Below, piece by piece: positions 2,425 to 44,108 of a stretch of 44,823 nucleotides of DNA; within the stretch, counting starts at the first letter, position 1, and the number at the start of each line of letters is the position of its first letter. The stretch is from a virus. The position numbers and the translations under genes are program-made. The DNA is taken from the IMG/VR virus record IMGVR_UViG_3300017917_002205, positions 1-44,823 of that record. One strand, written 5' to 3'. The notes under the pieces were generated by a model. It did not search any database and had not been told where the DNA came from. It worked only from the letters and a program-made list of their open reading frames with translations.

Positions 2425-2433
2425 ATAAATAGG
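2425..2433 (-). promoter_or_regulatory. Variant of the TATTTATAA start motif
   Basis: The coding strand reads CTATTTATGAG here, one base off the repeated motif. It lies after the HNH terminator and about 105 bases before the scaffold start, so it could be the promoter of genes 22 and 23. The ATG that follows it opens only a four-codon frame, so it does not start a gene. Confidence 0.35.
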
Positions 2434-2440
2434 TATAGTT

Positions 2441-2478
2441 TTATCAAAAAAGAAACCCTCCGGTTTTAATGGAGGGTT
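2441..2478 (-). terminator. Rho-independent terminator after the HNH gene
   Basis: On the minus strand AACCCTCC (2478-2471) pairs with GGAGGGTT (2461-2454) around a 9-base loop and is followed by TCTTTTTTG. The 8-bp stem with a T run lies between the HNH endonuclease gene and the scaffold gene. Confidence 0.8.
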
Positions 2479-2506
2479 AATTTAAAAAATTTATTTTTTT
2501 TCAGGT

Positions 2507-3232
2507 CTAAAATATTTTATTTAATTTATTTCTATTCCCTACATGTCCCATATGTCCGTACTTTTCAGCTATTTTTGTTGTTATGAACAACGGCTGTAGG
2601 TTTTTAAAATTAAAACATTCTTTCTGCTCTTCTAGATTTTCTAAGTTAAAAAAAGCACACGGTCTTATATGATCGATTTCCCACACTATTCCGTGATTAC
2701 CCCAAGTCATACCTGCTAGAAACTGCTTCTCTAGATAACCAACCGCTTCTTCTATAGTACATCCAAGTAACCCAATCGCCGAGTGTTTCTTGCTCACTTT
2801 ACCGCCTGTTGCGTGTCTTTTTATTGCGTCAAGTAACCTCATTCTTAATAGATACTTTACTTTATATTCTGGATCGTTATTCTTTCGTGTTCTTGTGTAA
2901 TTATTCTCCCACTCTTTTCCGCTCCCCTGTCTCCATGCATTGTGCCGCTTTGCTGTGCATTCCTTGCATCTACTAGCTAACCCATACTTTCCTGCTTTTA
3001 ATTTACTATACTGTTCATGAGGTTTCACTTCCTTACAGTCTGTGCAAGTTTTTAAACCAGGTTCATCCGGGGTTTTCCACCTTGTCGGAGATTTCTTACT
3101 GTAGTAATGTTTATCGTGATTTGCTTTACAGCAAACCTTACATTCCCTCTGTAAACCGTCTTTACGTAGCTTATTCTTACTAAACTCTAATAGTGTCTTC
3201 AGTTTCTTACAAGTTGGACATAGTTTCTCCAT
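2507..3232 (-). CDS. HNH homing endonuclease, free-standing, between genes 21 and 22
   Basis: This 241-residue protein has two N-terminal CxxC...CxxC zinc knuckles (CPTCKK...CKVC at about 5-34 and CTDCKE...CKEC at about 62-88). The C-terminal HNH nuclease core has WEIDHIRP, then an Asn-rich FNFKNLQPL with the late His/Asn ligands. This is the usual layout of phage HNH homing endonucleases, which cut an uninfected allele and spread by recombination. It sits between two genes that are neighbours in T4-like genomes. It has its own TATTTATAA box 3 nt before ATG and a strong terminator behind it, so it looks like a self-contained insert. The zinc knuckles probably help bind DNA. The target site cannot be read from this window. 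Confidence 0.88.
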   Translation of the reverse strand: MEKLCPTCKKLKTLLEFSKNKLRKDGLQRECKVCCKANHDKHYYSKKSPTRWKTPDEPGLKTCTDCKEVKPHEQYSKLKAGKYGLASRCKECTAKRHNAWRQGSGKEWENNYTRTRKNNDPEYKVKYLLRMRLLDAIKRHATGGKVSKKHSAIGLLGCTIEEAVGYLEKQFLAGMTWGNHGIVWEIDHIRPCAFFNLENLEEQKECFNFKNLQPLFITTKIAEKYGHMGHVGNRNKLNKIF

Positions 3233-3235
3233 CTC

Positions 3236-3244
3236 TTATAAATA
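3236..3244 (-). promoter_or_regulatory. TATTTATAA start motif before the HNH gene
   Basis: This is an exact TATTTATAA on the coding strand, followed by GAG and the ATG of the HNH gene. The 3-nt spacing is the commonest one in the window. Confidence 0.5.
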
Positions 3245-3274
3245 GGTGAGATTTTGAGAAACTATGTTGGGGTC

Positions 3275-3892
3275 TTAGAAAAGGGGACAATTACCATGTG
3301 CGCAGAGAATCTCCCGCACAATTTCATTTACCTTATCGTAATTTTTTACCGAAGGGTTCACACTTTCGTTCATGGTATGTTTACCTACCGGTGTCATCCA
3401 GGATCCTGGGTTAGAAGGAGTAGATACAAAATCAAAACATAATAATTCAAAATCATTCTGTACTTCTAAAGTCTCTCCCATTTGTTTTACTGAGCCCATC
3501 CCTCTTGATGATACACCAACAGTAATTCCTGAGTTAATCAATGCGTTTAGAATATTCCCAGAAGGGGTTGGAAGGATTTCAATTTTACCCATAATATGAT
3601 CACCATCCCACCAAATATCTTTGATGTTGTGACATACATTCTTTAAGTTAATAACAGTAGATTCTGGATGATCTAACTCACCAACTGCTCTATTTTGTTT
3701 AACTGAATCCATATACTTATTAATTTCCCTATCCCAGATTTTTCTGCTATAGTATCTACCGTTGCCGTTTTTTACTTCAGCAGTAGCTAAGATACCTTCT
3801 ACTAAAGGTAATCCGTTTGCACCTTTTCCTTCAGATAAACTTAAAGGCTTTGGTGTGAATGAGATGGTCTCAATAAGTAAATTTTTAGTCAT
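3275..3892 (-). CDS. 21: Prohead core protein protease gp21
   Basis: This is the serine protease that sits in the T4-type prohead core, cleaves scaffold, capsid and internal proteins after Leu/Ile-x-Glu, and then degrades itself. It is 205 residues from the chosen ATG; T4 gp21 has 212. The signature NGRYYSRKIWDREI (44-57) leads to the catalytic His in GELDHPE (H75) and the catalytic Ser in GVSSRGMG (S128/S129). A longer frame starts at 3940 but would overlap the upstream gene by 46 nt. The internal ATG at 3890-3892 sits just after the upstream stop and is preferred. This protease is the likely processing enzyme for the mosaic proteins at 3895-5552 and 11298-22390. Confidence 0.93.
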   Translation of the reverse strand: MTKNLLIETISFTPKPLSLSEGKGANGLPLVEGILATAEVKNGNGRYYSRKIWDREINKYMDSVKQNRAVGELDHPESTVINLKNVCHNIKDIWWDGDHIMGKIEILPTPSGNILNALINSGITVGVSSRGMGSVKQMGETLEVQNDFELLCFDFVSTPSNPGSWMTPVGKHTMNESVNPSVKNYDKVNEIVREILCAHGNCPLF

Positions 3893-3894
3893 TA

Positions 3895-5310
3895 TTAATA
3901 TCCTTTTTTCTTTAACACAGTCTTCATTGCTTCTTGCCACATAGAAGTTTTCTCCTTGGCTTCATCAATGATTTCTTCTCCGCCTGCTGCTTTTGGTCTT
4001 GTAGCATCACCAGAAACTCTTTTTGCTGCTTGAGCTTTTTTAGCTTCATACATCTTTTTTCTCTTCTCTAATAATGCAATATCTTTTTTAATTTCTTTAA
4101 TTGCATTTTTATCAACCATTTCCTTAACGTCGTCACTTTCGGTCATAGTTATTTTATTTTTTAATTCTTCGATTTTCTCTTGAATTTTTGTAGCTTTATA
4201 TTCGTATGCAGCAACTTCGCCTAATTTTTCAATTTCCTTTAAGTGTTTTTCAATTGCTCTTTTCTTAGCTTCTGAAAGTGTTTCTCTATTCTTATCTTTT
4301 GAAACAGTTTTTCCTTCTCTTGTAGGACCGTATTCTTTTTCCCATTCTGATTGTTTCATATAACCAAATCTCTCAGAATCATCGTCCATATTATAAGTGA
4401 AAGCTGTTCCTTTAGCACTACGAGCTGTCATGTTATCTTGGTAGAGTGTTTTCTCTTCAGGTTTTCCGTAAGGGTATGTGTAAACTACATAAGCTAATTT
4501 GTCGTAAGGAGGAAATTCTGCTTCTCCTAAACCTAAGTCTTGTCCTAAAGTTAACGCTCTGTTACGAAGTCTATCAGCTTCACTATAATCTTTACCGGTG
4601 TAAGCTCTGTGACCTAAGTCGTAGATAGCATCAGCCTTTCTTCTAAGTGCTTCAGCGTCTGTATTTGTGTTTTCCATTTCCGTAAGGTGTTTTTTAACTA
4701 CTCTTTTTTTACTTGTGGTGTTATTTTTTGATTCATTCAATTTAACAGGTTCCATTCCTGAAGATTTGTATTTGCCTGTTATTTCTTTAGTTGTACCTAA
4801 ACCAGGAGCATCCTCAGTATATCCGATGCCTTTAATGCCAAATGCTCCATCTTTAATATAGTACATTGGGTCTTTTTCAAGGTTCTTAAATACGATCTTC
4901 TTAAGTTCCTCTTCTGTCTTCTCTGCATTTTTAGGATCTTTCATCTCAGCATAATATCCTTTTAGAATTTCAGCTGTTGAAATATTGTTGTTATTATTCT
5001 TATCTTCGTAATCATACCCGGCAACTTCTTTTTCTTTTACAGACTTATCTGTATCTTTCAAAGTAGCTTTGATTGCTTCTGTATTTTCGTTAAAAATTTG
5101 AAACCAGTTTGGCTCTCCTTTTCTAGAAACTAATACTCCGGTTATATTTTCAGAGATAATTCCTCTTTCTGTTAAATTATGTATTGCTTGATCAAATGTA
5201 AGTGCGCCTGTCACTACATTAGGGAATAAGGTTCTAGCTTCTTTTATAAAAAGTTCTTTATTACCTTTACCTTCCTTGATCAGAGTGTATTTATCTTGTA
5301 GGCTTTTCAT
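3895..5310 (-). CDS. Mosaic prohead-core protein with internal L/I-x-E sites
   Basis: This 471-residue hydrophilic, Lys/Glu-rich protein lies immediately upstream of the protease, where T4 carries gp67 and gp68. I do not recognise the whole. It starts with a short tag ending in IKE (E13). Further Leu/Ile/Met-x-Glu sites lie at E193, E211, E347, E391 and E450, several followed by a small residue or Lys, as at gp21 cleavage sites. They divide the chain into a 14-193 module, a Tyr/Asp-rich 212-347 module and a Lys-rich coiled-coil region (348-430). I infer a core polyprotein cut in the prohead. It begins 3 nt after an exact TATTTATAA motif and ends 2 nt before gene 21. Confidence 0.7.
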   Translation of the reverse strand: MKSLQDKYTLIKEGKGNKELFIKEARTLFPNVVTGALTFDQAIHNLTERGIISENITGVLVSRKGEPNWFQIFNENTEAIKATLKDTDKSVKEKEVAGYDYEDKNNNNNISTAEILKGYYAEMKDPKNAEKTEEELKKIVFKNLEKDPMYYIKDGAFGIKGIGYTEDAPGLGTTKEITGKYKSSGMEPVKLNESKNNTTSKKRVVKKHLTEMENTNTDAEALRRKADAIYDLGHRAYTGKDYSEADRLRNRALTLGQDLGLGEAEFPPYDKLAYVVYTYPYGKPEEKTLYQDNMTARSAKGTAFTYNMDDDSERFGYMKQSEWEKEYGPTREGKTVSKDKNRETLSEAKKRAIEKHLKEIEKLGEVAAYEYKATKIQEKIEELKNKITMTESDDVKEMVDKNAIKEIKKDIALLEKRKKMYEAKKAQAAKRVSGDATRPKAAGGEEIIDEAKEKTSMWQEAMKTVLKKKGY

Positions 5311-5313: not shown

Positions 5314-5322
5314 TTATAAATA
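5314..5322 (-). promoter_or_regulatory. TATTTATAA start motif before the 471-residue core protein
   Basis: This is an exact motif on the coding strand, then CAT and the ATG. It lies in a 20-base gap between two head genes. Confidence 0.5.
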
Positions 5323-6388: not shown

Positions 6389-6422
6389 CAATATATGTTT
6401 TTTAATAAATATGTGTAAATTA

Positions 6423-8312
6423 TTATTCCCTAATTTGACTCTCGTCTAATAGACCATTAGCTTTTCTTTCTCCTTCAAAAATCATCTTTTTCTTAGATGG
6501 AATTTCTTCTAATATTCTTGTGATTTTAGAAAATTCTCTCTTAGTTGCTTCCATTGCATACGGTGAAGTTTTATCTCTACCATACCCTTCTTGGTCGTCA
6601 ACTTTGTTTGCTTTTCTACCAAGTCTATCCATTCCTAAAGGATCTTCTGTACCATTGATAAAAGATGCTTTTTCTCTAGGACGGCCCATTTCTGGTTCGT
6701 CTTCATTGTAACCATCCGGTACTGAGCCTGGTCTTGTGTAGACTCTTCCTTTACCGTATGCTGTTGCAATGTCGTGAGGAGTTCCGTAAGTTTCTCCAGA
6801 TTCTAAAGGATCATTTCCTTCGTTTTCTATTTGAGATAATCTGAATTTACGCTTAGCATCTTCTCTAACCAGGTCTCTCATTTCTTCATACTCATCCTGG
6901 CTTAAGTGGAAGATATTATCATAAATCCAATCAGAAGAAATTAACTGAGATTCCATCATTTGAGTTGCAAGATCCATTTTTTCTTTTAATAACGCTACTC
7001 TTTCCTGATCATAAATGATTGAAGGAGTGGTTAATGATAATTCAAAATTGGTTAATGCTTCGTCTCTATATCCTTGAATGTATAAATGCACGAATGCAAT
7101 CTTATATAACTCAGAAACTATGATTCTCTGTATTTTTTCTATTGTTCTACCAAAGCGAATATCTTCTGCAGCCAAAGTAGCCTTTCCTTGTAATTTTTCA
7201 TCATAACCAAGGAATGCTTTTGGTATTCTTAAGGCAGCAAATAATTTATCCCTAAGGTAATTTACGTCTGTAATACCGTCATACTGTAATCCTCCTAAAG
7301 TATCAATTTTAGTTGCAGTGTCATTACCACGTACCGGGATATAAAAATCCTCCATTAAGTTCTGCATGTTGTACTTTAAATTATATTCACCTGTCTGCTG
7401 GTCGATATAAGGAGTACGCTTCATTTTAGTAATAGCCTTCTGCATGAAGCCTTCAACTTCATTAGGAGGAATACCACCGACATTCATGTAGAAAATTCTC
7501 TTCTCAGGAGCTCTTACAATTCTATGAACTAACATTGCATCTTCCATCAAAGTATACTGCTTGAATAATTTTCTAGCAGGTTCAATGTAAGAACGTCCAT
7601 AAGGTAAGAAATTAACGTCTGTTAAAAGACGGAAGTGGGCTATTTCGTAATTGTCGAAATAAATAGATTTGGCATCGTGCTGATTAGGAGTTTTAAAGTA
7701 TCCATAAGTATCAGCGGCCAAGCCGTCTGGGTCATAACGGAATCTAACAGCAGTTGGATTTTCTGAATCATAATGTTCTTGTCTTTCTATATTGAATGCT
7801 GAGAATGGAATTACATTATAAACACCGTACTTTTCTGAAGCTTCTAATTTCAAGAAAAAGTCTCCGTATTTACACATGTTTCTAATCCACCAGCTTAAAT
7901 TAAATTCAACATTTAATACATCATAAAATAAATTATAAAGTATTTTCTGTACATTCTCATCATTTGATCTGATGTGAAGCACTTCTCCCATATCATTCTT
8001 AAGAGTAGATTCTTCTGATAGAATATCTAAGGCTGAAGCAATGATTGCATCAGTATCCATAGCATCATATTCAGAATATAACTGTGTTCTTAAAGTCTGA
8101 TAATTGAAAGATGATTGATATCCGTATAACGAAGTCGGGGAAGTTGTATAAATTCTGTTGTATCTTGCTACTAAAGAATTATTTTCTAATTCTCCAGACA
8201 TCTGAATTTGATTTGTATCGGCAACTTTAAGTTGATCACCCCCAACGTTCCTTATAATTACATCTGTTGAGAATAATCTACGTAGTCTCGAAAATACACT
8301 AGTGTCTGCCAT
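6423..8312 (-). CDS. 20: Portal vertex protein gp20
   Basis: This 629-residue protein is the dodecameric portal, through which DNA enters and leaves the head and on which the prohead is nucleated. The length is slightly above T4 gp20 (524). Family signatures include the N-terminal YRxxxTTSPTSLYGYQ-type region, DILSEEST, a LTDVNFLPYGRSYIEPARK segment, and VGGIPPNEVEGFMQ followed by a conserved Lys/Arg-rich strand, then LRIPKAFLGYDE. The C-terminal 120 residues are charged and Gly/Pro-rich, probably disordered. It directly follows the terminase gene; in T4 the sheath (18) and tube (19) genes separate them. A TATTTATAC motif lies 18 nt before ATG. Confidence 0.95.
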   Translation of the reverse strand: MADTSVFSRLRRLFSTDVIIRNVGGDQLKVADTNQIQMSGELENNSLVARYNRIYTTSPTSLYGYQSSFNYQTLRTQLYSEYDAMDTDAIIASALDILSEESTLKNDMGEVLHIRSNDENVQKILYNLFYDVLNVEFNLSWWIRNMCKYGDFFLKLEASEKYGVYNVIPFSAFNIERQEHYDSENPTAVRFRYDPDGLAADTYGYFKTPNQHDAKSIYFDNYEIAHFRLLTDVNFLPYGRSYIEPARKLFKQYTLMEDAMLVHRIVRAPEKRIFYMNVGGIPPNEVEGFMQKAITKMKRTPYIDQQTGEYNLKYNMQNLMEDFYIPVRGNDTATKIDTLGGLQYDGITDVNYLRDKLFAALRIPKAFLGYDEKLQGKATLAAEDIRFGRTIEKIQRIIVSELYKIAFVHLYIQGYRDEALTNFELSLTTPSIIYDQERVALLKEKMDLATQMMESQLISSDWIYDNIFHLSQDEYEEMRDLVREDAKRKFRLSQIENEGNDPLESGETYGTPHDIATAYGKGRVYTRPGSVPDGYNEDEPEMGRPREKASFINGTEDPLGMDRLGRKANKVDDQEGYGRDKTSPYAMEATKREFSKITRILEEIPSKKKMIFEGERKANGLLDESQIRE

Positions 8313-8330: not shown

Positions 8331-8339
8331 GTATAAATA
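8331..8339 (-). promoter_or_regulatory. TATTTATAC start motif before the portal gene
   Basis: The coding strand has TATTTATAC, a one-base variant, 18 nt before the portal ATG and directly after the terminase stop codon. Confidence 0.4.
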
Positions 8340-12491: not shown

Positions 12492-12614
12492 TTAAGAAAA
12501 TAATAAATCGAATGTTAAAGTTCTCTTCATTAACAAGTAAGCAGTGTATTTAGGAGGTAAGTTGATACTTATTCTTTTTCTTGCTCTGCTTTTTCTTTGT
12601 CTTTTTAATTTCAT
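12492..12614 (-). CDS. 40-residue very basic protein
   Basis: This short frame has its ATG overlapping the stop codon of the ferritin-like gene (TAATG), a common translational coupling. The product begins MKLKRQRKSRARKRISIN and has ten Arg/Lys in its first 14 residues, then a more hydrophobic tail (YTAYLLMKRTLTFDLLFS). It could bind nucleic acid or be packed with the DNA. No homologue is recalled. The support is the overlap, the otherwise empty 129-base gap and the strong composition bias. Confidence 0.45.
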   Translation of the reverse strand: MKLKRQRKSRARKRISINLPPKYTAYLLMKRTLTFDLLFS

Positions 12615-13159
12615 TAGAAGTAAGTCTGTTCGTAATATAATATTTCAAAGGAATTAGCAACGTTTATAAGTTGTGCTGCATTTAATAGGTCTGAATATTC
12701 TGCTACTGATTCTACTTGCCCGGTTCTTAGTGTTTGTAAGAAATCAAACGTAGATAAGTCTGAGGAGAATATAGTTGTTGATACGTTGTTATAAGCTAGT
12801 AATAAATCTAATTCTAATTTATATGCTTTGTTAACAATATCAATGAGGTTTGTAAAGTCTGGTATTAATTTGATTGGTGCAATCACCGGAAGTACATTCC
12901 AATCTACCATGTATTTTTGTAGCATCTCTGCATGAGTTAATTCATTAGCAGCTTCTTGTGTGAAGAATGCAGTTGCTTTTAAATACCCTTTATCTGCACA
13001 CCAGTTTGCTGCATTTCTATAAAAGTAATGAGCGGTATATTCGTCTTTTAGTCTCTCAGTAAGCATTAAAACCACCTGAGGGTCTAAGGTAACTGGTATC
13101 ATAACATCAGCAGGATTTGCTGATTGCAATTCATTCAAAGTTTTTAACTTAGTTTTCAT
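12614..13159 (-). CDS. Ferritin-like diiron protein with possible capsid tag
   Basis: This 181-residue four-helix protein is of the ferritin superfamily. Iron ligands line up with bacterial ferritin: E40 in LKDEYTAHYFY, E73 and H76 in AANELTHAEML (ExxH), E116 in YKLELDLLLAY, and a Gln148-Val-Glu150 segment in the fourth helix. The 33-residue distance between the first two Glu equals that of E. coli FtnA. Ferritins oxidise Fe(II) with oxygen or peroxide and store iron. The N-terminal extension MKTKLKTLNELQSANP carries Leu-Asn-Glu (E10) and is not part of the ferritin fold. It looks like the tags of neighbouring proteins, so it may send the enzyme into the head. An exact TATTTATAA lies 9 nt before ATG. 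Confidence 0.85.
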   Translation of the reverse strand: MKTKLKTLNELQSANPADVMIPVTLDPQVVLMLTERLKDEYTAHYFYRNAANWCADKGYLKATAFFTQEAANELTHAEMLQKYMVDWNVLPVIAPIKLIPDFTNLIDIVNKAYKLELDLLLAYNNVSTTIFSSDLSTFDFLQTLRTGQVESVAEYSDLLNAAQLINVANSFEILYYEQTYF

Positions 13160-13168: not shown

Positions 13169-13177
13169 TTATAAATA
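13169..13177 (-). promoter_or_regulatory. TATTTATAA start motif before the ferritin-like gene
   Basis: This is an exact motif in the 20-base gap, 9 nt before the ATG, a longer spacing than the usual 3. Confidence 0.5.
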
Positions 13178-13179: not shown

Positions 13180-13974
13180 TTACCAGTAACCTGAGTAAGA
13201 TCCTTTAAGTCCTAATAAAGAAGCGTATCTTGGTAGGCGGCAGGCCCAATATCCTGGTTTAGTTTTATCTTTTTTACCTGCGCAGTTGTGTCTTTTTGCA
13301 AAGTTCACTCTTGCCTCAGAGTCGTTTATTTTAGCTTTTAGGCCGGTTGTTCCACCAAAAGAAACTTTCTTAATACGTTTGGTTTTTGGATCTTTTACGT
13401 ATACATAAAATTTCTTAGAACCACCACGCTTTGGTTTACCTAACGGTACTTCTTTCCCTTGATATTTAGCTTCTCTTAACTGCCCAGCAATCGCTTGTGT
13501 GAATCCATACTGCCTTAATTTCTGCTCTAACTCCTCTAAAGATGCAGCATCAAAATCATATTCGTTAGTATCTACATAATAACCGTCCCGTCTCTTATAG
13601 ATTTCTGCCATATTGCCTTCACGGTCTCCGAAAGTTGCAATATGATCGTTAGAGTTAAAAGTTCCTTCGTCAAGCATTGGTAAGTCTAAAGGGACTAAGT
13701 CTCCTTCATATAAACCGTATTCACCTAAGTGAGTTTCGGTTATGATCTGCTTATCATCTGCCCCTACATCAATGATGTTTCTGGAATATAAAGTTCTAGC
13801 TTCTTTCCATAAGTTTAGAAAAGCAGGTGAACCGTACCTAAAGGTATTTTCTGTGAGTGGTTTCTTATTTTTAATATGGTAAAGCAGGTTCTCAGAGAGA
13901 GGTTGCTGGAAGGTTATTCCTTCGTTTAATAGAGGAGCTTTTCCTCCGCAAGTATTACATCCACAGCTGCACAT
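13180..13974 (-). CDS. Mosaic head-cargo protein with many L/I-x-E sites and a DUF5872-like end
   Basis: This 264-residue protein is built of short modules. It starts with a Cys-rich MCSCGCNTCGG. Leu/Ile-x-Glu tripeptides end at E18, E28, E42, E80, E103 and E168. The segment after E42 (FRYGSPAFLNLWKEARTLY) and the C-terminal module (about 169-253, KKFYVYVKDPKTKRIKKVSFG then CAGKKDKTKPGYWACRLPRY) recur in structural or core proteins of other T4-like phages. The C-terminal module resembles DUF5872. Six sites in one small protein fit stepwise cutting by gp21 into peptides. It follows an exact TATTTATAA by 3 nt. Confidence 0.7.
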   Translation of the reverse strand: MCSCGCNTCGGKAPLLNEGITFQQPLSENLLYHIKNKKPLTENTFRYGSPAFLNLWKEARTLYSRNIIDVGADDKQIITETHLGEYGLYEGDLVPLDLPMLDEGTFNSNDHIATFGDREGNMAEIYKRRDGYYVDTNEYDFDAASLEELEQKLRQYGFTQAIAGQLREAKYQGKEVPLGKPKRGGSKKFYVYVKDPKTKRIKKVSFGGTTGLKAKINDSEARVNFAKRHNCAGKKDKTKPGYWACRLPRYASLLGLKGSYSGYW

Positions 13975-13977: not shown

Positions 13978-13986
13978 TTATAAATA
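13978..13986 (-). promoter_or_regulatory. TATTTATAA start motif before the 264-residue mosaic gene
   Basis: This is an exact motif followed by TAT and ATG. It touches the stop of the upstream nuclease gene, whose last codon begins at 13987. Confidence 0.5.
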
Positions 13987-17186: not shown

Positions 17187-17200
17187 ATTAATAAATAGGT

Positions 17201-27223: not shown

Positions 27224-27232
27224 TTATAAATA
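27224..27232 (-). promoter_or_regulatory. TATTTATAA start motif before the 218-residue structural gene
   Basis: This is an exact motif followed by TATATT and ATG (6-nt spacing), in the gap after the 1700-residue gene. Confidence 0.5.
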
Positions 27233-33840: not shown

Positions 33841-35700
33841 TTATAAAGGTACAACTCTTCCTTTAATATCAGTCTCTGGATATTTTACTTCAAAGATTGA
33901 AGGATCAAGGGAAGGATATACTACGTTATTCTGTGTTGCAGAAGTTAAGTCGTAAGCGTATTTTGAATACCCAAGTGCTTCTCCTGATTTGTTATTTATA
34001 TTGATTGATTTAACTGTCTGTACTCCTTGTACTTTGTTTAAAAGGATATACAGGTCTCTAGTTAAAATAGGTTGATTGAATTGCCAATTTTGAATATTGA
34101 AAAAAGCTTTTAATTCAGTTAAGCAATTAAACAAGACTTCGTTGTTGTTGTAGTTAGGTTTTACTACTATTTCAAAATCAACTCCGATATTAATTATAAA
34201 TCCATCTTTTATAGTCACTCTATCCCCTACCATTCTGTATTCTGAAAGATAAGTGGATAGGTTCTGCTTAACTGCATCAGAGACTGTTCTTAGGTGTTGA
34301 TTTGAGTTGTAGCCTAAAACATACAATGTTAGTGTGCTTGGAATTTCACCAGGCATTGTTACTTGGTTTGCTTTAGTAGGTTCAATGAATGCTTTCGCAA
34401 TTGAACCGTAACTAGACGGCATTGATAATGCTCTTATCAAATAATCATTAGGTGTAACGTTTCTCAATTGTGATTGATAAGCGACTAATGTATTTTGTCT
34501 AATTTGTTCTAAAGTATCTCCTCCTGCTCCTCCATCTGCTGCTTTAGTATTGTTAACAGCAATTGTTGTGAAAATATAATTTGCAGTTGCAGAGTTTAGA
34601 TTATTTCCTAAGAAAGAAACACCTGTTGTAGTATTAAAAGTATTTAATGTTCCTGCTTCTATGTTTGCACCAACTCCACCGCCGGTTAAATACCTAACTG
34701 TTAAAGTCGTATTTGCAGGTGCAATTCCGTATGTGTCTGTGTAAAGGAAGTTGGTTGGGTCAAATGCAGTTGTTAATTTAGATTGCTCGTAAGGTAATCC
34801 TATACCTACGTTATTTGCATCCGGGGTTATTACTTCATCAACGTCTCCGGTTGTTCCTGCTCCAAATTGAATATCTAAATTAGTATTAGATCTAAAACGT
34901 GTTACAAATCGTCTAGATTTTTTATCTAGTTGTAGGATATATGGAGCATCTGTATCTTGGTAGGTATTTGGATCATTAGGGTTAGTATTTTTAATACTAT
35001 TAAATACCATTTCTTGCCCTAAATAAGGAACTTCGTACCAAACATTTCCTTCTGAATCTGTGATATCTAATACCTGTATGATATTAGGTGCTGTTAATGT
35101 AACAGTTGAGAAAGATTGCGGAGCTCCAAAAGAGAAAGTCTGTGTCTGTATTTGAGCAGAAATTGCTTTTCTTGTTTTCTTAAGTAAGTAGTATTGAGGA
35201 TTTCCTGCTGAGATTTGATATACAGAAACTTCTGTTGGATCTAATGAGCTTGAAACTGTAAAGTCAATATTACCTTGTATTAAGAAATTTGAAGTATTTC
35301 CCGCATTTCTAATTTGTGTATTTTCAGGGAAGTATAAAGCATAATCAAAATCCGGAACGTAAACTGATCCGGAAAGTTTTGCTGGTAATTGTTGGTAGAT
35401 ATCAATATCTACTGTAGCTGCTTTTGTTACTTTAGGTTTATATCCAAGCATGTAGGCTAGGTCGTAGAGACTTTCTTCCTGTTTTGCATACTGTAGGAAT
35501 GTTTCCTGTATTTGATTATCGAGATAAAAAGATAGTATATCCCCGACATAAGCAGATGTTTCCATGAACATCATACCCGGAGAGGAAGGACTAAAATCGT
35601 TGTATGTATCCGGGAAGTAGGTTTTAGTAAAATCTATTAAAAGATTTTTTAAACCTGCAAAGTCCCTATTGAAGTATTTTATATCTCTATTTTCAGCCAT
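33841..35700 (-). CDS. 6: Baseplate wedge protein gp6
   Basis: This 619-residue protein belongs to the gp6/J-like baseplate family; T4 gp6 has 660 residues. It forms the inner ring of wedges that opens when the baseplate fires. The N-terminal signature DFAGLKNLLIDFTKTYFPDT, then FSPSSPGMMFMETSAYVGD and LSFYLDNQIQETFL (about 13-69), is diagnostic. The later GGAGGDTLEQIRQN and TPNDYLIRALSMPSSYGSIA form the J-like core. Its ATG overlaps the stop of the gp25 gene by 8 nt. The order 25-6 differs from T4, where gene 25 lies apart from genes 53-5-6. Confidence 0.93.
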   Translation of the reverse strand: MAENRDIKYFNRDFAGLKNLLIDFTKTYFPDTYNDFSPSSPGMMFMETSAYVGDILSFYLDNQIQETFLQYAKQEESLYDLAYMLGYKPKVTKAATVDIDIYQQLPAKLSGSVYVPDFDYALYFPENTQIRNAGNTSNFLIQGNIDFTVSSSLDPTEVSVYQISAGNPQYYLLKKTRKAISAQIQTQTFSFGAPQSFSTVTLTAPNIIQVLDITDSEGNVWYEVPYLGQEMVFNSIKNTNPNDPNTYQDTDAPYILQLDKKSRRFVTRFRSNTNLDIQFGAGTTGDVDEVITPDANNVGIGLPYEQSKLTTAFDPTNFLYTDTYGIAPANTTLTVRYLTGGGVGANIEAGTLNTFNTTTGVSFLGNNLNSATANYIFTTIAVNNTKAADGGAGGDTLEQIRQNTLVAYQSQLRNVTPNDYLIRALSMPSSYGSIAKAFIEPTKANQVTMPGEIPSTLTLYVLGYNSNQHLRTVSDAVKQNLSTYLSEYRMVGDRVTIKDGFIINIGVDFEIVVKPNYNNNEVLFNCLTELKAFFNIQNWQFNQPILTRDLYILLNKVQGVQTVKSININNKSGEALGYSKYAYDLTSATQNNVVYPSLDPSIFEVKYPETDIKGRVVPL

Positions 35701-36103
35701 TGTTTAAATTTATTTCTAAAGTATCGGTCATTCCAGTGTTTACAATACTATAATTAATCTGGATGAAGATAGTATTATAATCGTAAGAAGGTTGTATTGT
35801 TACTGTCCCTTGTATGTTTGGAAAGTATTTCTCAATAATACTCCCTATGTAATTTTCTATTTCTGTTACTCCAAGTACTGTTATTTGTTCGAAAACAAAT
35901 TTACGGATCCCTGCTCCAAAGGTTGGATTAAAGACTCTTTCTTGCGGTCCGGTTAGTAAGAAATTAATTAAATTATTCCTAATTGCATCCTTAGTTGTAA
36001 AGGTTGGTTTGAAGACAGCGTTAGCTTTGAAAGGCAAAGATACCCCAACTGCTTTATTAGCATTCTGATCTATAGGGGCAATCTTGACAAATCCAAACGC
36101 CAT
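35693..36103 (-). CDS. 25: Baseplate wedge protein gp25
   Basis: This 136-residue protein of the gp25/lysozyme-like superfamily (T4 gp25, 132 residues) joins wedges and starts sheath assembly. The family core is visible: IRNNLINFLLTGPQERVFNP, then TFGAGIRKFVFEQIT, and a C-terminal strand pair (YDYNTIFIQINYSI). It is coupled to gp6 downstream by an 8-nt overlap and shares one base with the gene upstream. Confidence 0.92.
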   Translation of the reverse strand: MAFGFVKIAPIDQNANKAVGVSLPFKANAVFKPTFTTKDAIRNNLINFLLTGPQERVFNPTFGAGIRKFVFEQITVLGVTEIENYIGSIIEKYFPNIQGTVTIQPSYDYNTIFIQINYSIVNTGMTDTLEINLNNG

Positions 36104-36501
36104 TATTTCTTAGACATTAAGCCCATTATCTGGTTTAAGTTTACTTCCCCTGGAGGTAATGAGGAACCTTCTCCGGCTGTGTTTACCGGACGTGGTATAA
36201 ATTCTTGACCTCCTCCAAATGCCATTGCATCGTTTGAAGCCATGTTTAAGTTACCGTTTCTAGCATCCATCATACCGTTAAGCAGAGATGCATATTTTTC
36301 TCTTGTGTTGATAGCAGGTGCTGTTGGTATTGGTTGTACGTGTGGTTGTATGAGAGTTTCTGTTACTTGTCCATAACCGCCTACACCTACAGGAACTGTC
36401 TTAGGAGCTTTTAAAGCTTCTAATAGAACGTCTTTCAATTCTTCTTGAATGGCTTCTTTTACAGTTTCTTTGATAAGTCTTTTTAATGTCTTGATATCCA
36501 T
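36103..36501 (-). CDS. Unknown baseplate-operon protein with N-terminal amphipathic helix
   Basis: The 132 residues begin with a long helix (MDIKTLKRLIKETVKEAIQE, continuing to about residue 32). A Gly/Pro-rich linker follows, then AINTREKYASLLNGMMDARN and a C-terminal PPGEVNLNQIMGLMSKK. Proteins of this outline sit upstream of gp25 in some marine T4-like phages; the function is not known to me. The helix resembles capsid tags in composition, but its place in the baseplate operon argues for an assembly or linker role. It starts 3 nt after an exact TATTTATAA. Confidence 0.6.
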   Translation of the reverse strand: MDIKTLKRLIKETVKEAIQEELKDVLLEALKAPKTVPVGVGGYGQVTETLIQPHVQPIPTAPAINTREKYASLLNGMMDARNGNLNMASNDAMAFGGGQEFIPRPVNTAGEGSSLPPGEVNLNQIMGLMSKK

Positions 36502-36504: not shown

Positions 36505-36513
36505 TTATAAATA
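36505..36513 (-). promoter_or_regulatory. TATTTATAA start motif before the gp25/gp6 unit
   Basis: This is an exact motif, then AAA and ATG. It lies in the 16-base gap after the 315-residue gene. Confidence 0.5.
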
Positions 36514-37465: not shown

Positions 37466-38607
37466 TAGACTGTGTAGTTATATTTTGATTTAAAAATACT
37501 AGTATCGATTGCAGTTAGTCTATTGATCCAACCTGGTGCTTTTTGGTTTAGAGTCGGGATTGGACCTCCGGAATTTGCTGCAGTTGCAGATGCTATTGAA
37601 ATATCTTGAATTATTGAAATCAATTCTTTTACTACTGCTTCTAATGCATCCCCTAATACCAGTGGTTCGGTAGCTGATTTTGAACCTAAGTAAATATTCT
37701 CGGTTTGAAAAACTGCCTGTGTTGAATCGAAATTTAACCCTGAGTTTGAATTAAGGTTAATAGTTTTTGTAGAACTCAACATTAAATGATCTTCAGAGGA
37801 GTTAAAAATTAACCTACCAGAATTGATTATAATTTGCTTTCCTGAATATTGATCTGGAAGTGTTGGTGTATTTTCTTTGTAAGAAAGGTAGCTTGTACTT
37901 GCTGCTTGGAATGGTATCTTCTGAGTGGTTGTTAAGTAAATTGAAGATGGATCTTGGTTTATATTCTCCTCCGTAGGTAAAAATCCTACTGATCCTGTAT
38001 CTCCTTGACCATTTCTTAAAATAAGGATTGGATCTCCTGTTGTTCCTATTTCAGACCAGTTATTAAGTGGTTTGTTATTAAGCTGTACTGTGGATCCTAA
38101 TCTTATAGAATTACCAAGCCTGCCTTCTAATACTACATCACCTTCAAACTTCTTTACTGGTTTTATATTAGATCTTTCTTTGAAAGTCTGCCCCAGGTTT
38201 ATATCTGAGGTTCCATCTTCCACTCTCCTAACTGCTCCAGCTTGTGTTTGTACATAATCACGTTTTTGGGAGTCTGGTAGGTTCTTATTTTCAAATATAT
38301 TCGGAATACCGTTGTGGTGGTTACTGTTCCAGATATTTAAAGGTGTAATGTAGTAGTAAGTCTCTCTGAAGTTATTTGTTTGTATATCTGGGGAGGGTAG
38401 AGTGAATATGTAAACTAGTTCCTCTAGTAGTGGATAGTTACAAAAGTTTGAAAAATAAGGTTTTGCGAATCCTTCTGATTTGTAGTTATTACCTTTTACT
38501 TTTTTAAAGTATACAGTACCTACACCGTTCCATTCGCCTACGTTAGCAAAATACTTACTCGTATCATTTAGTACGATATCCTTAACTACTGCAACTTCAA
38601 AATTCAT
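37465..38607 (-). CDS. 5: Baseplate hub/spike protein, gp5-like without lysozyme
   Basis: This 380-residue protein matches the outline of the central tail spike. An N-terminal OB-fold-like part (about 1-110, with VVKDIVLNDTSKYFANVGEW) leads to a middle segment (KKFEGDVVLEGRLGNSIRLG) that marks the entry to the triple-stranded beta helix in gp5/VgrG proteins. Beta repeats follow (IIINSGRLIFNSSEDHLMLS, SSTKTINLNSNSG). There is no lysozyme domain, which T4 gp5 (575 residues) carries in its middle. The C-terminal tail is helical. The spike would thus pierce the outer membrane mechanically, with peptidoglycan cutting supplied by another protein. Confidence 0.8.
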   Translation of the reverse strand: MNFEVAVVKDIVLNDTSKYFANVGEWNGVGTVYFKKVKGNNYKSEGFAKPYFSNFCNYPLLEELVYIFTLPSPDIQTNNFRETYYYITPLNIWNSNHHNGIPNIFENKNLPDSQKRDYVQTQAGAVRRVEDGTSDINLGQTFKERSNIKPVKKFEGDVVLEGRLGNSIRLGSTVQLNNKPLNNWSEIGTTGDPILILRNGQGDTGSVGFLPTEENINQDPSSIYLTTTQKIPFQAASTSYLSYKENTPTLPDQYSGKQIIINSGRLIFNSSEDHLMLSSTKTINLNSNSGLNFDSTQAVFQTENIYLGSKSATEPLVLGDALEAVVKELISIIQDISIASATAANSGGPIPTLNQKAPGWINRLTAIDTSIFKSKYNYTV

Positions 38608-38942
38608 TACTCAATCGCTTTTATATTATTTATTTCTTTCATTAACTGCTCTCTTTCTTCTTCAGAGATACCAAAAGAATCCGTAGCAGATTCTTGATTC
38701 TGGAATATGCGTTGAATGATTGTTGCGATTTTGATCAGTTGTTCATCATTCTTAACTCCGATTTCTAGATATTCTTTTATCAAAGGAACAATCAACGTAG
38801 CATCCCCTGTGTCTTGTACAAGGGGTTTTAATTCAGAGATGAGAGCGCTAATCTGCTTTTCCTTCTTTTTTTGATTATCATAAATCTCCTCTAGAAGGTC
38901 TGCGAATTTTTTATTCTTGAAAATTAATTTATCTAAACTCAT
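38607..38942 (-). CDS. Small helical protein next to the late sigma factor
   Basis: This 111-residue helical, charged protein starts MSLDKLIFKNKKFADLLEEI and ends in EEEREQLMKEINNIKAIE. I do not recognise it. Its length and its place directly after the gp55-like sigma gene invite comparison with T4 gp33 (112 residues), the late co-activator, but I see no sequence similarity. It shares one base with the spike gene that follows. An exact TATTTATAA lies 14 nt before ATG, a wider spacing than usual. Confidence 0.6.
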   Translation of the reverse strand: MSLDKLIFKNKKFADLLEEIYDNQKKKEKQISALISELKPLVQDTGDATLIVPLIKEYLEIGVKNDEQLIKIATIIQRIFQNQESATDSFGISEEEREQLMKEINNIKAIE

Positions 38943-38956: not shown

Positions 38957-38965
38957 TTATAAATA
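38957..38965 (-). promoter_or_regulatory. TATTTATAA start motif before the spike unit
   Basis: This is an exact motif in the 37-base gap after the sigma-factor gene. The spacing to ATG is 14 nt. Confidence 0.5.
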
Positions 38966-38979: not shown

Positions 38980-39717
38980 TTAGAAATTAACGTACCCGTT
39001 CTCTAAGTAATGTATGTAGTGTTTTTTATAAAGATCCGCTAAATCATTTGCTACTTTAGTGATTCTAGGGGTCTTAACATCTATCTGCTCCCTAATGTAG
39101 ATATAAAGTGCTTTCTTATTAAAAATTGAGATTTTTTCTTTCTTTCTAAATACATCTAAGATAGCATCTGCAATTTTTGCATCTTCAACTTTTGGAAATA
39201 ATTGATAAATATTATCTGTACAATACTCAACATACAAGTCTAAGAATTCGGAGATTTCATCTACTGGATGTATTACTTGACTATCTGTTTGAATTCCATT
39301 AACATCTAAAACATCTCCGTAAACATACTCACCATCTTCCTGCTCGATATTTAAATTATCTAGAGAGAGCAACTCCATTCTCTTCTTGTAGTTTTTCTGA
39401 TTAGAAGCGATTAAGTATCTTTTTGCAATTGTGCCGAAGTATGAATAAGCTTTTGCTCCTTTGTCAGGATTAAATTTATCAAGCTTAGTTAATAGAAAAG
39501 TAATTACTTCGTGCTGAAGGTCTTCTAGGTTTGTTTCTTCGGTATAGTAGAATTTGAATGTGTGGATTAAGTTTTGAGTTAACTTAAATAGAGCGTAATG
39601 AATCTCCTCCCTGTATATTTTATTTCTTTCTGCTTGATCTTCTGATCTAGTGTATCTTATGATAGCAAGTTCAGTATCATGAGTGAAATAATTTTTATTT
39701 GTTACTATTGTCGTCAT
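38980..39717 (-). CDS. 55: Late-transcription sigma factor, gp55-like
   Basis: This 245-residue protein is a highly diverged sigma-70-type factor. Region 2 is the clearest part: TNLEDLQHEVITFLLTKLDK, then FNPDKGAKAYSYFGTIAKRY and LIASNQKNYKKR (about 60-115), in which the acidic helix binds the RNA polymerase coiled coil and the aromatic/basic helix melts the promoter. It is longer than T4 gp55 (185), with an acidic insert (IEQEDGEYVYGDVLD) and an extra helical C-terminus. In T4, gp55 directs host polymerase to TATAAATA late promoters, linked to replication by gp33 and the sliding clamp. Here it may recognise the repeated start motif. It overlaps the upstream membrane-protein gene by 23 nt. 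Confidence 0.88.
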   Translation of the reverse strand: MTTIVTNKNYFTHDTELAIIRYTRSEDQAERNKIYREEIHYALFKLTQNLIHTFKFYYTEETNLEDLQHEVITFLLTKLDKFNPDKGAKAYSYFGTIAKRYLIASNQKNYKKRMELLSLDNLNIEQEDGEYVYGDVLDVNGIQTDSQVIHPVDEISEFLDLYVEYCTDNIYQLFPKVEDAKIADAILDVFRKKEKISIFNKKALYIYIREQIDVKTPRITKVANDLADLYKKHYIHYLENGYVNF

Positions 39718-40785: not shown

Positions 40786-40980
40786 TTATCTTGAAATTTC
40801 GTTATTAGTAATAGGTTCAATACTAATTAGACTTTTTACTTCCTCTAAGACTAATTTAGTCCTTTCTAAAGTCTCTAAATATTCTTTGATGGGTTGCTGT
40901 CTTTGAACAATTTGTTCTAAAGATCTTAGATTATTTTCCAATATATCTAATTTTTGATTTACTTGATCTCTATATCTCAT
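40786..40980 (-). CDS. Small coiled-coil protein
   Basis: The 64 residues are almost entirely one heptad-repeat helix (VNQKLDILENNLRSLEQIV, then YLETLERTKLVLEEVKSLI). Similar short coiled-coil proteins lie beside the HD gene in related phages; the role is unknown. It precedes the HD gene by 12 bases. A TATTTATAG variant of the start motif lies 21 nt before its ATG. Confidence 0.65.
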   Translation of the reverse strand: MRYRDQVNQKLDILENNLRSLEQIVQRQQPIKEYLETLERTKLVLEEVKSLISIEPITNNEISR

Positions 40981-41001: not shown

Positions 41002-41010
41002 CTATAAATA
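41002..41010 (-). promoter_or_regulatory. TATTTATAG start motif before the HD/sigma unit
   Basis: This is a one-base variant of the motif in a 99-base gap, one of the longer gaps in the window. It lies 21 nt before the 64-residue gene and may start the transcript that includes the HD, membrane and sigma genes. Confidence 0.4.
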
Positions 41011-41595: not shown

Positions 41596-42243
41596 TTATC
41601 CTTGTTTAAGAATAATATTTTTATTGAAGTAGGTGATTGTGTTTGCAATTTGACGAATCAATTTCTCATCACCTAATTCTTTAGCTGCACGGTATGCATC
41701 TGTTAATTCACTAAATGCTTTTTTAGACTCCGAAGAACCAGCATCAATATCACCTGTAGTGTCCATATTCATATCGATCTGTTCACCACCTTCTTCTCCG
41801 GTAGTATCTAAATCAAGATCAAGATTATCAACATCACCTTCAACATCTGATTCAATGTCAATATCTTCTTCCTCTTCTTTCTTCTTAGCTTCATTTAAGG
41901 ATCTCTCAGCAAGGATTGCTTCTTTAAGTTTCTTCTTAAATTCACTCTTAGTCATTTTCTCCCCTGTTGATTCTGACATATGCATTTCTTCAGTTTCTCT
42001 TTTTTCTGCTTCAGCCATAGAAGAATTAACAGCAGATTTAATAGCCATTACTAAATCCTCACCGCCTATTTCTAAAGCCTTAGACATAAATTTTTTCAAA
42101 TCTGAAGTGATCTTCTCCTCAGTATCCCAAGCAGTCATAATGTTAGAATGAAAAGTATCATCCATAAGATCTTCCGTAGTTGCAGAGTAATTCTCAGTGA
42201 TAACACCGGCAAGTTTCTGCATTCTTGTAAATTGTTTATTCAT
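41596..42243 (-). CDS. Acidic head-associated protein with scaffold-type tag
   Basis: The 215 residues start MNKQFTRMQKLAGVITENYS. The block F-x-R-M-Q-K-L-A-G-V-I matches the last residues of the gp22 scaffold (MVERFQKLAGLI), and Ile-Thr-Glu (E17) directly follows as a possible gp21 site. The middle has a helical MTKSEFKKKLKEAILAERSL and a long acidic stretch (about 120-165, rich in Asp/Glu). The C-terminus is a helical bundle-like part (FSELTDAYRAAKELGDEKLI). It may be an extra core protein encoded far from the head genes. It has its own terminator. A TATTTATTA variant lies upstream. Confidence 0.7.
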   Translation of the reverse strand: MNKQFTRMQKLAGVITENYSATTEDLMDDTFHSNIMTAWDTEEKITSDLKKFMSKALEIGGEDLVMAIKSAVNSSMAEAEKRETEEMHMSESTGEKMTKSEFKKKLKEAILAERSLNEAKKKEEEEDIDIESDVEGDVDNLDLDLDTTGEEGGEQIDMNMDTTGDIDAGSSESKKAFSELTDAYRAAKELGDEKLIRQIANTITYFNKNIILKQG

Positions 42244-42278
42244 TTTAAAAAGCGCTTTATTAATAAATAGTAAGGTTT

Positions 42279-42509
42279 TTAGTAAAGCTCATGAAGCCTT
42301 AGTATAGTAGTCTTAGAAATTTCCGGAATACCATGCACATGCGATCTACCGCACTTAACAAGGATTGATCCTTTATAGACTTCAAAACCAGTTATAGGCC
42401 CTTCCGGGGTAGGGTGACCAAGATAAAATTTCTTATCATCCGATAGACGCCAAACACCCCCAATCTTCTTATCAGGGTTTAAAGCAATTATTCTCCAGGT
42501 AGCATTCAT
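42279..42509 (-). CDS. Small conserved-looking protein, unknown
   Basis: The 76 residues (MNATWRIIALNPDKKIGGVW and later LGHPTPEGPITGFEVYKG) look like one small beta-barrel, perhaps SH3-like. There is no catalytic motif. It lies between the terminator of the 50-residue basic protein and the acidic tagged protein. Its function cannot be told from sequence. Confidence 0.55.
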   Translation of the reverse strand: MNATWRIIALNPDKKIGGVWRLSDDKKFYLGHPTPEGPITGFEVYKGSILVKCGRSHVHGIPEISKTTILRLHELY

Positions 42510-42523
42510 TTGCTAAATATAAG

Positions 42524-42558
42524 AAATAAAATTAAGAAAGGCAAGGATTATCCCTGCC
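42524..42558 (-). terminator. Terminator overlapping the stop codon of the basic protein
   Basis: On the minus strand GGCAGGGA pairs with TCCTTGCC (one G-T pair) around a 3-base loop that is the TAA stop codon itself. TTTCTTAATTTTATTT follows. The stem therefore includes the last two codons. Confidence 0.7.
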
Positions 42559-42700
42559 CCCTAGACACCTTAGTATAATTTTTAGAATTTTTATTCTTAG
42601 ACATTTTAGTCTTGGCATGAATGCCTTTTCTAGAAACCTTCGGTTTTGCAAGTCTTACAGTAACGGAGGTAGTTTTAGTTTTCCCTTTAGATGGTGCCAT
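42548..42700 (-). CDS. 50-residue basic protein
   Basis: This is a short frame starting at ATG 42698-42700. The product, MAPSKGKTKTTSVTVRLAKP and then RKGIHAKTKMSKNKNSKNY ending in SRGQG, has about 15 Lys/Arg. The RKGxHAKTK...KNSKNY...RGQG pattern is one I recall from very small conserved proteins of other phages, though no function is assigned. It may bind RNA or DNA. It lies 18 bases after the 80-residue gene with a TATTTATC variant motif before the ATG. Its stop codon is the loop of a terminator. Confidence 0.7.
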   Translation of the reverse strand: MAPSKGKTKTTSVTVRLAKPKVSRKGIHAKTKMSKNKNSKNYTKVSRGQG

Positions 42701-42718
42701 AGTTACTGATAAATAGTA

Positions 42719-42961
42719 TTATCCAGGAAATGGTGGTACTTCAATACTAAAAGTAACGGGTTGACCTAAGACAACCTCAAGGCTCTGATCATAGATAATA
42801 TACCAAAATTGAGGTGTGTTAAGTTCTGCAAATAAATAATCCACCCAATTCTGAGTAACATCATCCAACGATACAGGAATACCGTAATAAGCATCACACG
42901 CCTCCCGAGCGTTAATCGCATCTTGCTCCGTTGTAAATTTATATCCTTTAATAGATTCCAT
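42719..42961 (-). CDS. Small tail-fibre-associated protein
   Basis: The 80 residues (KGYKFTTEQDAINAREACDA, then VTQNWVDYLFAELNTPQFWY and LEVVLGQPVTFSI) match a short protein type that often lies directly behind fibre/adhesin genes in phages of Bacteroidetes. It overlaps the adhesin gene by 14 nt, so the two are coupled. It may help fibre assembly or form part of it. The assignment comes from memory of the pattern and from position. Confidence 0.65.
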   Translation of the reverse strand: MESIKGYKFTTEQDAINAREACDAYYGIPVSLDDVTQNWVDYLFAELNTPQFWYIIYDQSLEVVLGQPVTFSIEVPPFPG

Positions 42962-44096
42962 AGTAAGCGTTTATATTTGATTCAATCCCACCCCTATTGA
43001 TAGACTGTACTGAACCACTATAGTAGATAAATTCCGACCACTTCTTTTGACTACCAGAACCCCCAGACCAAGAGCCGAATATCAAAATACCCCCAGTACC
43101 TGAGATCGCTATAGGATCTGAGAAAGACCCTGTGTAATTAAGTGTTCCGTTTTTATAATCAAACAAGTTAAAAGTTTCTGTGTATATACTAGTCTTAAGT
43201 TGTTTGGAGCCCCAGTAGGAAGTATAGGAGATAGCACTACCGGTACCTGCCCTAAAATAATCCTTAGTAGTTCCATCATAGTTTGCTGAATAACCTATAA
43301 TCTGTACATATAGCCTAGAGGGCATAGCAGTCCATAGCACATCAACATCAGTATTTGGAGACCCTGAAGTAACATTATGAACAGAAAACCAGGTATGAGA
43401 AGATCCGATCAGATTAGGTGCTTCTAGCGATTTCTGCCCAGGACCAAATATTACAGGTTTACTACCATCTAAAATAATAGAACCAGATACAACAACAAAC
43501 GGCTGAGAAACTGCGGATGATTGTACAGCGTTTTTATTATTTCCACTTTGGTCATACCAAGTTGTTACAGCCCCATCACCAACACCACAGAAAGTTAATA
43601 AAGAAGCAGTATCTAAAACACCATCTACGAAACCAATATTCTGTTCAGTATTATCACTTGACCTCCGAACACGAATAGCTGAACCTGTATAATTTGATGA
43701 TAATTGTCTCAATGAATAAGCAGCAGCAGCCCCTGTATACCTATCTAAGAGAAAAGTACTAGGTGAATTAGGACCAGTCCCTCGCATAAATAACATAGAG
43801 CCGGTGATAAAAGTTGCAGGAGTAAAAGTGACCGAACCACCACCTGGTTTCACTACAGCAGACATCTTATAATTATCACTAGTAACATTAGTAATCCCTG
43901 AATCATAGGTAAAAGAACCTGAAATAGAAGGGGTAGACCCTGAATAAAAACCAGAACTATTAGCAACGGTTTCTAAGCTAAAATAAGAAGCTCCAGCTAA
44001 AGAATTCGTGACAGCAAAAATAGTTACCTGTGAACCAGAAAGGTTGTTAGGGAAAAATGAAAAAGATTGTGTAACATTAACCGAATAGGTAGCCAT
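42948..44096 (-). CDS. Fibre/adhesin with concanavalin-like lectin region
   Basis: This 382-residue beta-rich protein has a core at about 116-200: LLDRYTGAAAAYSLRQLSSN, then GSAIRVRRSSDNTEQNIGFV and VTTWYDQSGNNKNAVQ. This block is shared by arabinofuranosidase-B-type/ConA-like modules and by tail fibres of many Bacteroidetes phages. The C-terminal half (GGILIFGSWSGGSGSQKKWS, FIYYSGSV) looks like the end of a LamG-type jelly roll. The N-terminal 100 residues are Ser/Thr-rich and could attach to the virion. It is the best receptor-binding candidate in the window. An exact TATTTATAA lies 3 nt before ATG. Confidence 0.78.
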   Translation of the reverse strand: MATYSVNVTQSFSFFPNNLSGSQVTIFAVTNSLAGASYFSLETVANSSGFYSGSTPSISGSFTYDSGITNVTSDNYKMSAVVKPGGGSVTFTPATFITGSMLFMRGTGPNSPSTFLLDRYTGAAAAYSLRQLSSNYTGSAIRVRRSSDNTEQNIGFVDGVLDTASLLTFCGVGDGAVTTWYDQSGNNKNAVQSSAVSQPFVVVSGSIILDGSKPVIFGPGQKSLEAPNLIGSSHTWFSVHNVTSGSPNTDVDVLWTAMPSRLYVQIIGYSANYDGTTKDYFRAGTGSAISYTSYWGSKQLKTSIYTETFNLFDYKNGTLNYTGSFSDPIAISGTGGILIFGSWSGGSGSQKKWSEFIYYSGSVQSINRGGIESNINAYYGIY

Positions 44097-44099
44097 ATA

Positions 44100-44108
44100 T
44101 TATAAATA
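44100..44108 (-). promoter_or_regulatory. TATTTATAA start motif before the adhesin gene
   Basis: This is an exact motif, then TAT and ATG (3-nt spacing), in the 19-base gap after the 36-residue peptide gene. Confidence 0.5.

Follow-up and report, generated by a model that had tools for sequence, protein, structure and literature searches.

The stretch analyzed here, called the window throughout, is the whole of virus record IMGVR_UViG_3300017917_002205 from IMG/VR, 44,823 bases long, and all 47 of its listed genes lie on the minus strand. Among them are head and tail genes of the T4 type, encoding the terminase large subunit, the portal, the head protease, and baseplate wedge proteins. Flavobacterium phage immuto, whose terminase is 61% identical to that of the window, is the closest relative with a name. 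In the gaps between the genes an AT-rich word, TATTTATAA, recurs together with the shorter TATTTATA. We propose, with a probability of roughly 85%, that a clade of T4-related phages, to which the window belongs and whose nearest named relative infects Flavobacterium, uses this box, in the form (A/C)TATTTATA(A), as its late promoter.

Nine exact copies of TATTTATAA are present, each in a noncoding gap upstream of a minus-strand gene, at the positions given by an earlier interpretation made from the letters alone (the sequence-only reading). Its statement that most copies sit 3 nucleotides (nt) before an ATG holds for six of the nine. In these six, all on the minus strand like the other window sites described here, the first T of the box lies 12 nt from the A of the ATG, and we refer to them as the leaderless class: 3236 to 3244, before an endonuclease VII/HNH-like gene (2507 to 3232); 5314 to 5322, before the gene at 3895 to 5310; 13978 to 13986, before that at 13180 to 13974; 22394 to 22402, before that at 17783 to 22390; 36505 to 36513, before the gene at 36103 to 36501, which heads a run with the baseplate genes at 35693 to 36103 and 33841 to 35700; and 44100 to 44108, before a virion structural protein gene (42948 to 44096). 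The remaining three copies end 6 nt (27224 to 27232, gene 26561 to 27217), 9 nt (13169 to 13177, gene 12614 to 13159), and 14 nt (38957 to 38965, just downstream of the sigma factor gene and before gene 38607 to 38942) before the ATG, which puts the first T at 15, 18, and 23 nt from it, respectively.

The one- and two-base variants named by the sequence-only reading also exist. Two are TATTTATA, followed by C at 8332 to 8339 (27 nt from the ATG of the gp20-like portal gene, 6423 to 8312) and by G at 41003 to 41010 (30 nt from the ATG of gene 40786 to 40980, the first of the run that holds the sigma factor gene). The others are copies of TATTTAT, of which those at 6405 to 6411, 17191 to 17197 (11 nt from the ATG of gene 16728 to 17186), and 42263 to 42269 (26 nt, gene 41596 to 42243) are followed by TA, and that at 42709 to 42715 (15 nt, gene 42548 to 42700) by C. 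The first of these precedes a gene whose start at ATG 6388, as previously assigned, is more plausible than the TTG at 6391 in the mechanical gene list. The copy at 2425 to 2431 is not at a gene start, since the next start is 113 nt away. Directly before it lies a hairpin that resembles a terminator and carries a run of T, and the leader from this copy would be about 100 nt long, unlike those of the other sites in the window.

The repetition is real, strand specific, and located at the heads of gene runs. When the motif was counted on each strand, as the sequence-only reading had proposed, TATTTATAA occurred nine times in the sense of the genes and not at all in the antisense direction; the three antisense copies of TATTTATA in the window all fall within genes. 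The proposed comparison with a shuffled genome gave an expectation of 2.53 copies over both strands of the whole window, with none of 100 shuffles reaching nine, and dinucleotide shuffling of the gaps produced a mean of 0.19 copies and a maximum of 2 in 300 shuffles. The top two words found de novo in the gaps were CTATTTAT and TATTTATA. TATTTAT lies within 45 nt of the start in 15 of the 26 genes preceded by gaps of at least 10 nt and in 0 of the 21 with smaller gaps, a contrast that is partly built in because the word needs room.

To this we added a set of relatives from IMG/VR, consisting of 80 terminase and 80 sigma factor loci (L010 to L169) examined together with the window; at least 598 confirmed terminase matches were found in that database. 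Genes were called as the longest open reading frames with ATG starts only. Because contigs in the set overlap (L013 and L132, for example, belong to a single contig), the raw totals of 346 and 443 sites are too high, and we report unique contexts beside them. In the relatives and the window, 454 gap sites of TATTTATA are aimed at gene starts and 61 are not, the latter being, as judged by eye from the listed rows, mostly TATTTATAAATA stretches, in which either strand spells the word, and in some cases the variant TATTTATTAATA. No enrichment of the word was seen in RM378 or LR756508.

Spacing was scored at 421 of the 454 sites, those in which the word ends no more than 40 nt before a gene with 40 codons or more, representing 43 gene families and 321 unique contexts. 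The distance from the first T to the ATG has a sharp floor: 2 contexts at 10 nt, 7 at 11, 77 at 12, 2 at 13, and few from there to 19. A second, broad mode follows, with 44, 47, 32, 11, and 22 contexts at 23, 24, 25, 26, and 27 nt. Twelve nucleotides is the commonest spacing in 8 of the 43 families, and none of three control words had a spacing peak as high as that of the box at 12 nt. Start codons at this distance were ATG in 69 contexts, TTG in 1, and GTG or CTG in none. Among 79 deduplicated contexts of leadered sites, 91% have an A at 11 nt downstream of the first T, and the sequence is A-rich from 10 to 13 nt.

A promoter start 11 to 12 nt downstream of the first T would explain both the 12-nt mode and the A at 11 nt, and where the start codon lies at that point, the mRNA would be leaderless. 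Bacterial genes that are leaderless are marked by a TA-like signal about 12 base pairs (bp) upstream of the start codon (PMC3160421), and this signature is found in the window. Alternatively, the box may be a promoter of the late class from which RNA starts downstream of the A of the ATG, so that genes at 12 nt are not leaderless and use an internal codon or some other route. The numbering of T4 promoters, in which the T is at -13 (PMC2988020), would shift the start one base later in this way. We consider this unlikely, given that the 12-nt spacing recurs among unrelated families with almost no contexts at 13 nt, that leadered sites carry A at 11 to 13 nt, and that the codon in question is ATG rather than GTG or TTG. 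In phage immuto (L170, 1337 to 1346), immuto26A_2 is annotated to start only 9 nt from the first T of a box. This would precede the predicted RNA start, and a later ATG is likelier.

The leaderless type of layout is frequent in the close group of the window and rare in immuto. Counting sites with an ATG within 60 nt, spacings of 10 to 13 nt make up 7 of 15 late sites in the window, 15 of 38 in a 166-kilobase (kb) relative (G001), 4 of 32 in immuto, and 0 of 16 in the more distant phage Mel-JY01, and, among early sites, 2 of 2, 6 of 19, 3 of 32, and 0 of 1, respectively. Both early-class promoters of the window, at 24122 to 24152 (before the DNA primase gene, 23191 to 24117) and 42514 to 42544 (before gene 42279 to 42509), have the host-like -33/-7 form TTG...TATATTTA and lie 12 nt from the ATG, so that the leaderless layout extends beyond the late class.

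This early class is distinct from the box. In immuto, genes at 60 to 77 kb are preceded by GTTG, about 20 bases, and then TAT(A/C)TTTAGGTA; in both immuto and the 166-kb relative, the host-like GTTG...TATxTTTA form fills the early block, and the box marks the late regions, serving the portal, sheath, tube, and tape measure genes of immuto. Between 60 and 80 kb of immuto lie 22 of 28 early-type sites in sense gaps and 3 of 26 late boxes (P = 6e-7), and between 80 and 100 kb of the 166-kb relative lie 15 of 17 early-type sites and 2 of 34 late boxes (P = 5e-9), P values that are optimistic because the bins were picked after the counts were known, with "early" and "late" assigned by gene content, annotation, and position. 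GTTG occupies the early-class position at 40 of 59 early-type boxes and at 8 of 341 late sites, and base composition upstream of late sites is flat.

These comparisons bear on the possibility that the box is read by a primary or alternative sigma factor of the host and not by a gp55-like protein. The flavobacterial -7 box spans -12 to -5 (PMC6847099), and the T at -12 and A at -11 of the late box agree with it; the early class of these phages is, moreover, close to the host form. The strict host pattern TTG...TAnnTTTG had no sense gap sites in immuto, where the early form is TAT(A/C)TTTAG. Against the Bacteroidota sigma-A consensus TANNTTTG (PMC6847099), which requires TTTG at -8 to -5, the last four positions of TATTTATA are TATA. 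Late sites have no -33 element and are clearly split from the host-like early class, and the same word occurs in Mel-JY01, in which the early class is absent from gaps and the listed host is a cyanobacterium. Reading by a host sigma factor is for these reasons improbable.

Mel-JY01, whose record lists Microcystis elabens as host, encodes a terminase 50% and a sigma factor 35% identical to those of the window. Exact TATTTATAA was not found in this genome, and the box gives a fainter signal here than in the Flavobacterium group, with 14 sites toward starts, 5 away, and 44 more within genes. The box lies 41 to 44 nt from the ATG of late genes such as those at 17435, 26740, 31641, and 34510, the last annotated as tail tube, and at one minus-strand site it is 48 nt from the ATG of a minus-strand gene. 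The interval between box and ATG usually contains GGAG-, AGAGG-, or AGGA-like sequence. The late region of this relative with Shine-Dalgarno-like leaders also holds a gene annotated as RpsU, ribosomal protein S21 (L174, 22183 to 22410).

The second option of the sequence-only reading, that the word is a translation initiation signal, aiding the ribosomes of a host without Shine-Dalgarno use, fares poorly in this light. It would suit the six exact copies placed precisely 3 nt before an ATG, the lack of Shine-Dalgarno use in Bacteroidota (PMC6847099), and the presence of a Shine-Dalgarno-like word at only 5 of the 47 genes of the window. A signal needed by the ribosome, however, would be expected at tightly packed genes too, and none of the 21 such genes has the word within 45 nt. 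Distances between word and ATG vary widely, from a sharp lower limit of 10 nt up to about 48 nt, the word splits by late and early region, and the bases at -3 are mixed, unlike the A-3 of flavobacteria. The position of the word some 40 nt upstream in Mel-JY01, with Shine-Dalgarno-like sequence between, argues in the same direction. On the spacing, the operon-head pattern, and Mel-JY01, we rejected a translation signal as very improbable.

The sequence-only reading had described the motif as the reverse complement of the T4 late promoter box, pointing antisense to the genes. The first part is literally so for TATTTATA and TATAAATA; in the sense direction, however, TATTTATA also matches TATAAATA at 6 of 8 positions, and the antisense puzzle need not exist. 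We ran one script over six phage sequences, with T4 (74 to 117 kb) and Pelagibacter phage Mosig (71 to 121 kb) as orientation controls. In gaps, TATAAATA pointed toward versus away from starts 10 and 0 times in T4, 9 and 0 in Mosig, 0 and 11 in the window, 2 and 34 in the 166-kb relative, 9 and 24 in immuto, and 6 and 13 in Mel-JY01; the corresponding counts for TATTTATA were 6 and 4, 2 and 7, 11 and 0, 33 and 3, 27 and 6, and 14 and 5. In the group of the window, the box is therefore read as TATTTATA, and the antisense orientation appears to be a coincidence of an AT-rich word. That T4-type TATAAATA promoters on the plus strand produce antisense RNA, a notion that the exact fit of the other-strand letters to the T4 box might encourage, is scarcely credible and was ruled out by this comparison. 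The word TATAAATA faces away from starts at all 11 gap sites of the window, at 34 of 36 in the 166-kb relative, and at 24 of 33 in immuto but toward them at 10 of 10 in T4 and 9 of 9 in Mosig. It is, moreover, on the sense side that the spacing is tight and the start region rich in A.

A candidate reader of the box is encoded at 38980 to 39717 (minus strand), a gp55-like late sigma factor of 245 amino acids with sigma region 2 and an extra conserved C-terminal domain. The claim that a gp55 gene is present stands as regards a diverged, gp55-like protein, identified by profile alignment and fold and only weakly by single-sequence matches. A profile of 19 of these sigma sequences aligned to eight T4-type gp55 proteins with hhalign at E = 1.3e-5 (Prob 81), and phrog_234 was matched by 17 of the 19 members at E values up to 1, the best being 1.6e-4. 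The structural model (mean predicted local distance difference test score [pLDDT], 73) aligned to T4 gp55 (7d7c_F) with Z = 10.5 over 129 of 137 residues, and homology to T4 gp55 in sigma region 2 was thus found. The late-type box at 41003 to 41010 heads the gene run that includes the sigma factor gene, which may therefore be autoregulated.

T4 gp55 contacts A-12 through Y97, A-9 through N13 and H95, and A-8 through T99 (PMC7892883). If the box is aligned with that of T4, the A bases at -12 and -8 persist, and those at -10 and -9 give way to T. In an ungapped alignment of the proteins, Y97 corresponds to an invariant tyrosine (Y93), H95 to Y91, and T99 to G95, so that the residue changes may fit the altered middle of the box in part; the change at T99 would touch a base that is kept. 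T4 gp55 is 60 residues shorter, at 185 amino acids. Residues 149 to 245 of the window protein (38983 to 39273, minus strand) form the extra conserved domain, modeled as four helices with a pLDDT of 88, for which a fold search gave no clear match; sigma region 4 was absent from the match list, which does not exclude region 4. The sliding clamp family PF02916 (gp45) was found in T4 and had no match in the 166-kb relative, immuto, Mel-JY01, or cyanophage S-RIM44, and PF02768 had no match in the relatives of the window.

The observations are best accounted for by the first option of the sequence-only reading, a late promoter that has diverged and yields nearly leaderless mRNA, for which the enrichment, the direction, the spacing rule with its minimum of 11 to 12 nt to the ATG, the class split, and the missing -33 element speak together. 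In the model that we favor, the box would serve as a -10-like element for host RNA polymerase carrying the phage gp55-like sigma factor. It would correspond to the T4 late box with the middle A bases (-10 and -9) changed to T and the A bases held in deep pockets of T4 gp55 (-12 and -8) kept. RNA would start 11 to 12 nt after the first T, which is the A of the ATG at 7 of the 15 late sites of the window, yielding leaderless mRNAs that would be translated as such, and the remaining late promoters would give short leaders. Early genes would use the separate host-like -33/-7 promoter.

Several points weigh against this interpretation. TATTTAT is missing before 11 of the 26 genes preceded by gaps of 10 nt or more, and not every gene run has a box. 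The leaderless layout, at only 4 of 32 late sites in immuto, is not clade-wide, and T4 numbering would set the RNA start at 13 nt from the first T instead of 12 (PMC2988020). GTTG, rare as it is upstream of late sites, is slightly commoner there, at 8 of 341, than the 1 of 341 counted in a control stretch. The link between gp55 and the box rests on gene presence and remote homology: the window protein by itself matched phrog_234 at E = 0.001 and Sigma70_r2 at E = 5e-5, just below the cut-off; hhalign against T4 gp55 alone gave Prob 1.3; the Z of 10.5 to 7d7c_F was tied with general sigma factors; Foldseek ranked 7d7c 28th, at E = 2.2; and PDB sequence searches with the protein and its profile returned no sigma match.

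Late promoters of T4 (TATAAATA, used with gp55, gp33, and gp45) share with those of the window a single 8-bp AT box upstream of the start, the lack of a -35 element, what appears to be an AT-rich downstream region, late virion genes, and a sigma factor of the gp55 type (PMC2988020). They differ in the middle of the box (AA in T4, TT here) and in the extra C-terminal domain of the sigma factor; no clamp was recognized here. In the stretch of T4 that was tested, boxes lie 22 to 36 nt from the ATG (one at 81), whereas the spacing in the window permits leaderless mRNA. We regard the box as functionally a late promoter of the T4 type, and probably one by descent as well; by consensus it does not belong, as TATAAATA is not the form it takes. 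Drift of the late box has precedent in relatives of T4, with Aeh1 carrying a/gC at -13/-12 and KVP40, 44RR, and S-PM2 being near-identical to T4 (PMC2988020). In the group of the window it is instead positions -10/-9 that differ, and the box seems strand-reversed as a result. The housekeeping promoter of Bacteroidota (TTTG / TANNTTTG) has in common the TA at -12/-11 and, apparently, the distance to the start, and a modified form of it serves the early genes of these phages, but the late box lacks both the TTTG and the -33 element. The TA signal of leaderless genes likewise shares a TA box about 12 bp before the start codon (PMC3160421); here it is a phage box of the late class, in a host phylum where only a minor share of mRNAs lacks a leader (5.5% in F. 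psychrophilum; PMC9723704). Judged by titles and the beginnings of abstracts, we found no literature on this box or on promoters of immuto and recognized no paper on the isolation of immuto.

Two neighboring features are recorded here as well. A tRNA-Met gene (anticodon CAT) lies at 44230 to 44304 on the minus strand, upstream of the last gene, and the endonuclease VII/HNH-like gene adjoins the head protease gene and has a leaderless-class box of its own.

A broader scenario, which we offer tentatively and regard as doubtful, is that a gp55 lineage in phages of Bacteroidota respecified the T4 box, turning two central A bases into T, and acquired a C-terminal domain in place of gp33 or the clamp tether. 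Late and some early mRNAs would then begin at AUG, Mel-JY01 would keep the box with a longer leader, and the group would have an activation logic of its own. If the promoter assignment is true, it would provide a late promoter consensus for abundant and mostly uncultured T4-related phages, and their early and late genes would be separable from sequence alone. The T4 box, the changed box, and the changed sigma factor would form a natural series for understanding how a minimal sigma factor reads DNA, and these phages would present many leaderless mRNAs in a phylum whose translation start signals are poorly understood.

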